From contig JAUSNJ010000024.1 of assembly GCA_030645355.1 (NCBI GenBank), forward strand, positions 19,846-83,845: a DNA stretch of 64,000 nt, read 5' to 3'. Source of the stretch: Rhodoferax sp. GTDB lineage: Bacteria; Pseudomonadota; Gammaproteobacteria; Burkholderiales; Burkholderiaceae_C. The position numbers were made by a program, and so were the translations under genes. The notes under the pieces are model-generated. The model had not been told where the DNA came from and did not search any database. It saw nothing but the letters and a program-made list of their open reading frames with translations. Position 1 is the first letter of the stretch, and each line of letters starts with the position of its first letter. This document shows positions 32,199 through 35,489 of this stretch, one piece after another.

Positions 32199-32327
32199 AT
32201 GAAAACCATCGTTTACGCCGTGTGCGCATCTGCCCTGTTGCTGGTAACCGCTTGCAACACCGTCAAGGGTGTGGGCCAGGACATCCAGAAGGCTGGAGAG
32301 AAGATCGAAGGCGCGGCCAAGAAATGA
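32199..32327 (+). CDS. Entericidin A/B-family small lipoprotein
   Basis: Manual translation [42 protein letters not shown]; lipobox LVTAC; below the ORF-track length cutoff. Confidence 0.88.
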
Positions 32328-33058: not shown

Positions 33059-34126
33059 ATGAAAATTGCAGTATTGCCCGGTGATGGCATCGGTACCGAA
33101 ATCGTCGCCGAGGCCGTCAAGGTATTGAACGTCCTGGGCCTGCCCCTGGAAATGGAAAGCGCCCTGGTCGGCGGTGCCGCCTACGAGGCCCATGGTCACC
33201 CCCTGCCCGAATCCACACTCAAGCTCGCCAAAGAAGCTGACGCGGTTTTGTTCGGTGCCGTCGGTGATTGGAAGTACGACAAGCTGGACCGCCCGCTGCG
33301 CCCCGAGCAGGCCATCCTGGGCCTGCGCAAGAACCTGGGCCTGTTCGCCAACTTCCGCCCCGCGATCTGCTACGAACAGCTGGTCGGTGCCTCAAGCCTC
33401 AAACCCGAGCTGATCTCGGGCCTGGACATCCTGATCATCCGCGAACTGACCGGTGACATCTACTTTGGCCAGCCCCGTGGTCGCCGCATCGCAACCGATG
33501 GCCACTTCCCTGGTGCCGAAGAAGCCTTTGACACCATGCGCTATTCGCGCCCCGAAATCGAGCGCATCTCCCACGTGGCTTTCCAGGCCGCGCGCAAGCG
33601 CAGCAAGCGCGTGACCAGCGTGGACAAGGCCAATGTGCTGGAAACCTTCCAGTTCTGGAAGGACGTGGTTTCTGAAGTCGGTCTGCAATACCCCGACGTG
33701 GAGCTGGACCACATGTACGTGGATAACGCCGCCATGCAACTGGTCAAGGCTCCCAAGCGTTTTGACGTGGTGGTGACCGGGAACATGTTTGGCGACATTT
33801 TGTCGGACGAAGCCTCCATGCTGACCGGCTCCATCGGCATGCTGCCCTCGGCATCGCTGAACGCCAGCAACCAGGGCCTGTACGAACCCAGCCACGGCAG
33901 TGCGCCAGACATTGCCGGCAAGGGCATCGCCAACCCGCTGGCCACCATTCTGAGTGCCGCCATGATGCTGCGCTTCAGCCTGAACCAGGAAGCCTCGGCG
34001 CAGCGCATTGAAGCCGCCGTGCAAAGAGTACTGGCGCAAGGCCTGCGCACCGCCGACATCTACAGCGAAGGCACGACCCGCGTCAGCACGCGCGAGATGG
34101 GCGACGCGGTTGTCAAGGCCTTGTAA
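33059..34126 (+). CDS. leuB: 3-isopropylmalate dehydrogenase
   Basis: [38 protein letters not shown]. Confidence 0.97.
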
Positions 34127-34148
34127 GTGCCTGGCTTACAATCGGCGC

Positions 34149-34265
34149 ATGCAAATCAATCGCCCCGCTGTCCTGCCACTGCCCTTCTGCGGCGGTACAG
34201 GTGCGTGGGCCGGTGTGTCGTCAGCTACGCCTGCGACCACCAAGACGACAACCATTAAAGGCTAA
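34149..34265 (+). CDS. Putative attenuator leader peptide upstream of asd
   Basis: MQINRPAVLPLPFCGGTGAWAGVSSATPATTKTTTIKG*; clustered Thr/Lys/Ile codons near the stop, followed by a strong stem-loop. Confidence 0.6.
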   Translation: MQINRPAVLPLPFCGGTGAWAGVSSATPATTKTTTIKG

Positions 34266-34308
34266 AGAGCCCGGTTCGTCGCGCCCTTCCCGGCCAGACG
34301 AGCCGGGC
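34216..34308 (+). promoter_or_regulatory. Candidate attenuator with alternative pairings 1:2, 2:3, 3:4
   Basis: Segment 1 TGTCGTC (34216-34222), 2 GACGACAACC (34244-34253), 3 GCCCGGTTCGTC (34269-34280), 4 GACGAGCCGGGC (34297-34308). Confidence 0.6.
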
Positions 34309-34352
34309 AGATCAAATTCTGAGTAGTTGAATTTTTCTGAAAGGGCAATGTC

Positions 34353-35489
34353 ATGAAGGTAGGTAATCTCGTAGGCCTCGTCGGTTGGCGCGGCATGGTG
34401 GGGTCGGTCCTGATGGACCGCATGGAAACCGAGGGCGACTTCGCGTTGATTGAACCCATGTTCTTCTCCACCTCAAATGCCGGCGGCAAAGCCCCGGCCC
34501 AGGCCAAGAACGAAACCGCGCTGCAGGACGCCTTCAACATTGACGCGCTGAAGCGTTGCGACATCATCATCAGCGCCCAGGGTGGCGACTACACGACCGA
34601 AGTCTTCCCCAAACTGCGCGCCGCCGGCTGGAGCGGCCACTGGATCGATGCCGCGTCTACCTTGCGGATGGAAAAAGACGCCATCATCATTCTGGACCCG
34701 GTCAACATGCCGGTCATCCAAAAAGCGCTGTCCAATGGCGGCAAGAACTGGATCGGTGGCAACTGCACTGTCAGTTGCATGCTGATGGGCGTGGGTGCGC
34801 TGTACAAGGCCGGCCTGGTGGAGTGGATGAGCACCCAGACCTACCAGGCAGCCAGCGGTGGTGGCGCGCAGCACATGCGCGAACTGCTAACGCAGTACGG
34901 CACGCTGAACGCGGAAGTCAAAGCCCTGTTGGACGATCCCAAGAGCGCCATCCTGGAGATCGACCGCAAGGTCATTGCCAAGCAGCGAGCACTAACTTCC
35001 GCTGAAACCGCTAACTTCGGCGTGCCTCTGGGCGGCTCGCTGATTCCCTGGATCGACAAGGATCTGGGCAATGGCCAGTCCAAGGAAGAATGGAAAGGCA
35101 TGGCCGAGACCAACAAGATCATGGGCTTGGGCGAAGGCTTCAGCGCCCCGGCCATTCCCGTGGACGGTTTCTGTGTGCGCGTGGGCGCCATGCGCTGCCA
35201 TAGCCAGGCGCTGACCTTCAAGCTGAACAAGGATGTGCCGGTGGCCGACCTGGAAGCCATGATGGCTGCCGACAACCAGTGGGTCAAGGTGGTCCCCAAC
35301 ACACGCGAGGCCACGATCAAGGATCTGACCCCCGTCGCAGTGACCGGGACGATGACGATTCCGGTGGGCCGCGTACGCAAATTGGCTATGGGTCCGCAAT
35401 ACGTCGGCGCCTTCACGATTGGTGACCAATTGCTCTGGGGAGCCGCGGAGCCATTGCGCCGGATGCTACGGATTTTGCTAGCCGCGTAA
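34353..35489 (+). CDS. asd: Aspartate-semialdehyde dehydrogenase
   Basis: [30 protein letters not shown]; 378 aa. Confidence 0.96.

Follow-up and report, generated by a model that had tools for sequence, protein, structure and literature searches.

In the 64,000-nucleotide stretch of Rhodoferax DNA analysed here (hereafter the window), the region between leuB (stop codon, 34124–34126) and asd holds a small open reading frame (ORF), rich in Thr, Lys, and Ile codons just before its stop, and a hairpin (Table 1). Thr, Lys, and Ile are, Met excepted, the end products of the pathway fed by Asd. The locus thus raises the question of whether this short region senses these amino acids on behalf of asd and, if so, at which level it acts. 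The original prediction, made from the nucleotide sequence, had identified the downstream gene as asd, which the match to TIGR01745 bears out, and had proposed an attenuator with the logic of the thr and trp leaders. The closest named relatives, as judged by Asd, are Rhodoferax metagenome-assembled genomes (MAGs; 96% identical) and other Comamonadaceae. As described below, the region is most likely a real and conserved attenuator of asd, in which Thr, Lys, and Ile are sensed through codons and which acts on the initiation of translation.

Table 1 Features of the asd leader region, with positions in the window
Feature	Position	Strand	Basis or role
Putative -10 box TACAAT, 6 nt 5' of the leader ATG	34137..34142	+	TANAAT conserved upstream of free leaders
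Leader ORF, 38 codons (ATG 34149, stop TAA 34263-34265), N-terminal part not conserved	34149..34265	+	Comparison of relatives
Predicted sensor codons T-T-K-T-T-T-I-K	34236..34259	+	T+K+I enrichment; TKTTTIKG or near variants in relatives
Spacer codon Gly, then stop	34260-34262, then 34263-34265	+	Directly after the sensor codons
Strand 2 (GCCCGGUUCGUC)	34269..34280	+	Forms the long hairpin with strand 4; would be covered by a ribosome on the stop codon
Predicted anti-Shine-Dalgarno GCCCUU	34283..34288	+	OFF-state window fold; duplex energies with its own site
Strand 3 (CCCGGC)	34289..34294	+	Forms the short hairpin with strand 4
Strand 4 (GACGAGCCGGGC)	34297..34308	+	Common to both mutually exclusive hairpins
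Spacer hairpin CAGA..AAAUUC/GAAUUU..UCUG	34308..34339	+	Puts the asd ribosome-binding site beside the anti-Shine-Dalgarno; window folds
asd Shine-Dalgarno region GAAAGGGC	34339..34346	+	Partner of the anti-Shine-Dalgarno via AAGGGC 34341-34346
asd, aspartate-semialdehyde dehydrogenase, 378 aa, putatively regulated gene	34353..35489	+	TIGR01745 asd_gamma, E 2e-177

The leader reading frame and its distribution

The 38-codon ORF, which encodes MQINRPAVLPLPFCGGTGAWAGVSSATPATTKTTTIKG, and the 12-bp hairpin formed by strands 2 and 4 were both present as originally described and far above chance; the hairpin has a calculated energy of -31.6 kcal/mol (z = -4.4), with 0 of 200 dinucleotide shuffles as stable, and the whole leader fold has a z of -2.6. 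Leader peptides of relatives end in TKTTTIKG, TKTTTITG, ITKTTTG, and similar sequences, following divergent N-terminal halves. Of the last nine codons, 81% are for Thr, Lys, or Ile in leaders with an ORF of their own (free leaders, n = 69) and 77% in the form fused to leuB (see below), compared with 13% and 18%, respectively, in the 15 codons before them. Since these codons are enriched with varying order and number, also in the leuB fusions, their composition is what is kept. As expected of a thr-type leader, the C-terminus, TTKTTTIKG followed by the stop, is conserved.

A DNA search matched the region in 80 of about 90 genomes of the same genus, the most distant of which still aligned at the Thr/Lys codons and the hairpin. 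With a covariance model built on these two parts and used for a genome-wide search of the family and the order, the element was found in 109 of 141 Comamonadaceae genera and in 283 of 401 genomes, the latter count being a lower bound because some family members scored negative carry a diverged form, with E-values down to 1e-19. It is nearly always single-copy and lies upstream of asd at every locus examined. Some Comamonadaceae are truly without the leader, and in the other families of the order the model found it to be essentially absent, giving five matches with E-values of 0.01–0.05 (near chance), none at a locus containing asd. The original prediction was to be given up if orthologous asd leaders conserved neither the C-terminus of the ORF nor the stems; across the relatives, this conservation proved strong. 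One locus of the same genus (L026, genome G075), with a leuB–asd gap of 95 nt, has lost the sensor codons and retains a decayed hairpin, and its asd site reads GAAAGGTC in place of GAAAGGGC. Two public MAG contigs labelled Singulisphaera (L207) and Akkermansia (L265) carry a Comamonadaceae asd with the leader and are likely from mislabelled or contaminated bins. Several draft assemblies break exactly at the element (G046:C26/C150, G067:C58, G073:C311, and G088:C36/C67), probably owing to the GC-rich hairpin.

The leader ORF itself looks leaderless, as judged from the sequence upstream of it. TANAAT was found 5–9 nt 5' of the start codon in 66 of 69 nonredundant free leaders (TACAAT in 51), and a 67th has TAAACT, while a control with 643 ATGs inside asd gave none with a 5- or 6-match box 6–8 nt upstream. 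A Shine-Dalgarno-like site precedes the leader start in only 1 of the 69. The spacing between the -10 box and the ATG, from which the start position is predicted, points to a transcript that would start at or within a few nucleotides of the ATG.

At many loci, there is no separate leader ORF, and the sensor codons are the final codons of leuB, 70–120 nt from asd; the LeuB proteins then end in, for example, ...AVVAA-ITKTITKG, ...VVKAITKTTKS, ...VKTTKGITKS, or ...ASPKAITTITTGS. By a simple rule, 37 loci were classed as fused, 189 as free, and 41 as having neither form, with four of the free calls lying outside Comamonadaceae, among them a weak and probably spurious one (L192). On the weakly resolved Asd tree, the best count gives 13 changes between the free and fused states within the family, with a minimum of 3 for the fused state required by well-supported branches. 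Conversely, asd still has its leader in Acidovorax relatives, although leuB lies 0.9–1.1 kb away there, and in several Limnohabitans with no leuB within reach. In the fused form, the C-terminal tail of LeuB appears to be the attenuator's sensor. Such a tail of Thr, Lys, Ile, and Gly is encoded by leuB at L069, L103, L107-L109, L115, L131, L134, L138, L140, L146-L148, L151, L154-L156, L160, L162, L164, L201, and other loci.

Alternative hairpins and the asd ribosome-binding site

The mutually exclusive pairings of the original prediction were correct in that two alternatives exist, but its segments were not the right ones, since strands 2 and 3 compete for strand 4. Its stem 1:2 is not conserved (of the 64 free loci in L001-L070, only 5 contain TGTCGTC), and its 2:3 pairing between codons and the strand beyond gave a mean z of -0.33 relative to synonymous codon shuffles, with significance in 1 of 69 leaders. 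A second hairpin, which it did not contain, overlaps the first and covaries like it. By strand-wise parsing of 93 nonredundant sequences, about 94% of cells were paired for 2:4, 8 of the 12 pairs showing double changes, and about 96% for 3:4 across six pairs, 3 of them with double changes, these counts ignoring shared ancestry. Moreover, a change of CCGGG to CCAGG in strand 4 was matched by C-to-T on both strands 2 and 3 in 5 of 5 sequences. The matched double changes on both alternatives indicate that both of these mutually exclusive hairpins are maintained. Arms of the GGACCCC/GGGGUCC type lengthen the short hairpin in diverged fused leaders. The spacer hairpin region is modestly stabler than its shuffles (mean z, -1.2).

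An RNAalifold consensus from a MAFFT alignment chose the short hairpin together with a GGCU/AGCC mini-hairpin at the stop codon; because one-base indels made it miss the 2:4 pairing, strand-wise parsing was used instead. The GGCU/AGCC hairpin around the leader stop (34260–34272 in the window) is possible in most sequences according to RNAalifold and may compete for the 5' end of strand 2. Kissing of the short-hairpin loop with the spacer hairpin was dropped as a candidate, being present in some sequences only.

Strands 2 and 3 are separated by a GCC(C) motif that hardly varies; in the window, it reads GCCCUU and is complementary to AAGGGC of the asd Shine-Dalgarno region (hereafter anti-SD and SD). 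In the window fold, GCC of the anti-SD pairs with GGC of strand 3 within the long hairpin and is free in the short-hairpin state. The energy of the anti-SD duplex was -10.45 kcal/mol with its own ribosome-binding site (RBS) versus -5.79 kcal/mol with the sites of leader-less genomes, the own site being better in 93 of 93. AA..GGC is found at the asd site in 79 of 93 leader-bearing sequences, in 3 of the 18 family members without a leader, and in none of 23 from other families, and the leader-less relatives are mostly without GGGC there. Most leader-bearing exceptions that have no GGC keep the pairing by matched changes, for example CCCUC/GAGGG at L129 and GCCCCU/AGGGGU at L137. Base by base, anti-SD:SD covariation was detected at position -2/+2 (p = 0.004) and was not significant at the others, its weakness being due to the nearly invariant core. 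The advantage of the own pair over those of other leader-bearing genomes was small (permutation p = 0.015, phylogeny not corrected), and the association between leader and GGC gave no significant test on the tree, where well-supported independent contrasts were too few.

The competition among the strands was further analyzed by folding with the front edge of a ribosome set at successive positions after the leader stop codon. When RNA of the window was exposed from up to +3 nt after the stop, the probability of 2:4 pairing was 1.00 and that of anti-SD:SD pairing 0.00; from +8 on, 3:4 and anti-SD:SD reached 0.99 and 1.00, respectively. As for a translational attenuator in general, the hairpins are by computation mutually exclusive and one of them leaves the SD sequestered. 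By the geometry of the free form, the predicted switch falls between +3 and +8 nt downstream of the stop, so that stalling inside the leader ORF would open the SD. Over the 69 free leaders, mean anti-SD:SD pairing was 0.18 at +3 and 0.86 at +10, and a drop in SD exposure of more than 0.3 was seen in 41 of 69 native leaders compared with 3.5% when the leader was shuffled and the RBS kept. Swapping in the RBSs of leader-less genomes lowered anti-SD:SD pairing from 0.87 to about 0.22–0.24. Going by the E. coli footprint, the front edge would lie at about +4 at most for a ribosome with a sensor codon in the A site and at about +10 for one on the stop codon; taken with the computed switch, this reach implies that the conserved Gly-stop puts the switch between the two cases. 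When SD sequestration was averaged over the whole purine run with a long asd flank, no change between states was obtained, and the repeated calculation gave a modest change only (0.50 to 0.36); with pairing confined to the GGGC core, such averaging masked the effect. The 24 leuB-fused leaders showed no equilibrium switch, the SD being closed in both states (anti-SD:SD, 0.70 versus 0.86). With the RNA ending at strand 4, 2:4 was favoured in these leaders (0.78), and any switch in them would, on this folding model, have to be co-transcriptional.

Proposed mechanism and competing explanations

We consider it probable that the region is a ribosome-mediated attenuator of asd acting on translation and not a transcription terminator. 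In the scheme that follows, we infer the transcription start, the translation of the leader, the stalling, and the direction and size of the regulation. The leader ORF has Thr/Lys/Ile codons at its end and is probably read from a leaderless transcript. Under a shortage of charged tRNA-Thr, -Lys, or -Ile, a ribosome would stall on this cluster with its front edge no more than about 3–4 nt past the stop; strand 2 would then pair with strand 4, and strand 3 would hold the anti-SD inside the long hairpin. The asd RBS would thereby stay open and Asd be made, giving more enzyme when Thr, Lys, or Ile is short. With the amino acids plentiful, the ribosome would get to the Gly-stop and cover strand 2, strand 4 would pair with strand 3, and the freed anti-SD would close the asd site. 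Since an untranslated free leader would be partly open, repression would need frequent translation of the leader. Control of asd by charged tRNA, as originally proposed, is therefore likely in view of the conserved Thr/Lys/Ile leader, but its termination logic of the thr/trp type is not retained, the predicted output being exposure of the asd RBS.

Transcription attenuation, in which one of the hairpins would end transcription before asd, alone or with Rho, unless stalled ribosomes prevented it, would account equally for the sensing logic and for a geometry like that of the trp and thr leaders, with a stop codon just before the masked strand. T-runs of 5–7 are also present between strand 4 and the SD in 29 of 93 sequences, and terminator-less leader peptides for which Rho has been suggested are described (PMC1262725). 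However, the 8 nt following strand 4 contain five or more T in 0 of 93 sequences, so that intrinsic termination is unlikely and the caveat in the original prediction about a missing U-tract was right, and this strand gave no site resembling an intrinsic terminator. Both hairpins, moreover, end at the same base, and hence neither could be the sole terminator, and it would go unexplained why GGGC is conserved at the RBS and lost along with the leader. We thus regard termination as an unlikely output. The absence of a visible separate promoter in many genera with the codons on leuB would suit another explanation, that the element mainly governs how translation of asd is coupled to, or re-initiated after, that of leuB (or the leader), or else has a role in the stability or separation of the leu and asd messages, its Thr/Lys codons being slow ones that serve coupling and not a sensor. 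This seems improbable, because the leader stays with asd where leuB is far (Acidovorax relatives) or out of reach (Limnohabitans), and because the Thr/Lys/Ile make-up is kept while other residues are free.

Across the family, CGGCCAGACGAGCCGGGC is very highly conserved, which could be taken as a sign of a ligand- or protein-binding, riboswitch-like RNA with an incidental ORF, yet the three-way competition of strands explains this conservation. Insertions and deletions comprise whole codons with the frame kept, the composition persists after fusion to leuB, and a search of the region against Rfam gave no family match even at E-values up to 5, the Thr_leader model included; such an RNA is thus very improbable. 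A chance ORF beside a chance hairpin, for which only the small size speaks, is refuted by the distribution of the single-copy element across the family and has practically no likelihood left. Returning to the translational attenuator, we lean slightly towards its fullest form, in which a family-wide element with a leaderless ORF would sense Thr, Lys, and Ile jointly, its sensor having repeatedly moved onto or off the 3' end of leuB, and in which the LeuB tail would be only a regulatory signal.

Relation to known leaders

Proteobacterial amino-acid attenuators are textbook cases of transcription termination. The asd leader is of a known kind, ribosome-mediated attenuation, and differs from the thr and trp leaders in its predicted output, its apparently leaderless start, and its repeated fusion to leuB. 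With the thr operon leader of gamma-proteobacteria (thrL/thrABC; Thr_leader in Rfam), it shares Thr and Ile codons near the stop, alternative hairpins, and an aspartate-family gene downstream. In contrast to that leader, it has added Lys codons, precedes asd instead of thrABC, is without a U-tract or terminator, is predicted to act on translation initiation, and has a putative leaderless start or a fusion to leuB. In E. coli, the ilvGMEDA leader responds to more than one end product of a branched pathway and acts through a transcription terminator; multi-product sensing would be shared by the asd leader, which has no terminator and concerns other amino acids. As in the translational attenuators of the ermC/ermB type, the position of a ribosome on the leader ORF would decide whether a hairpin hides the downstream SD. 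The signal here, however, would be amino-acid starvation read through codons and not a drug, the RNA, gene, and hosts are others, and one hairpin would set the anti-SD free while the other would trap it.

The trpL attenuator of S. meliloti has a leaderless leader ORF at the 5' end of its transcript, senses Trp, and uses an intrinsic terminator (PMC7298713); a leaderless ORF would be the trait in common, suggested in the asd leader only by the spacing between -10 box and ATG. The actinobacterial LEU element before leuA combines a leader peptide containing regulatory codons with an RNA structure touching the SD and has no terminator; it forms a pseudoknot in which the SD is paired by the Leu codons, and the effects of codon mutations are reported not to fit classical attenuation (PMC1262725). 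Unlike that element, the asd leader has a separate anti-SD and a conserved amino-acid composition. No asd attenuator in Burkholderiales was found described in Rfam, NCBIfam, Pfam, or the open-access papers searched. If the proposed mechanism is true, a conserved, single-copy attenuator that acts on the RBS and senses three branch-point end products would widen the picture of attenuation. The leuB-fused forms further suggest that an enzyme tail can be kept for its codons and not for the protein, and caution is advisable in reading such C-terminal extensions as function.

In another Burkholderiales family (f14; L174, L275, and L276), a different leader ORF, likewise rich in Thr, Ile, and Lys, lies about 90–200 nt upstream of asd and ends in SIKRTTTIITKTVMKG, SITTIITKKTKTIILV, and STTIITKKTKTTVLV. 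It is followed by a hairpin with covarying arms (UCGUCCC/GGGACGA versus UGGCCCC/GGGGCCA) and, in these three loci, no U-tract; this leader may be either a diverged relative or of independent origin. Finally, the leu cluster of the window contains, between leuC and leuD, a lipoprotein-like ORF of 42 aa (32199–32327, + strand), which we take to be entericidin-like.
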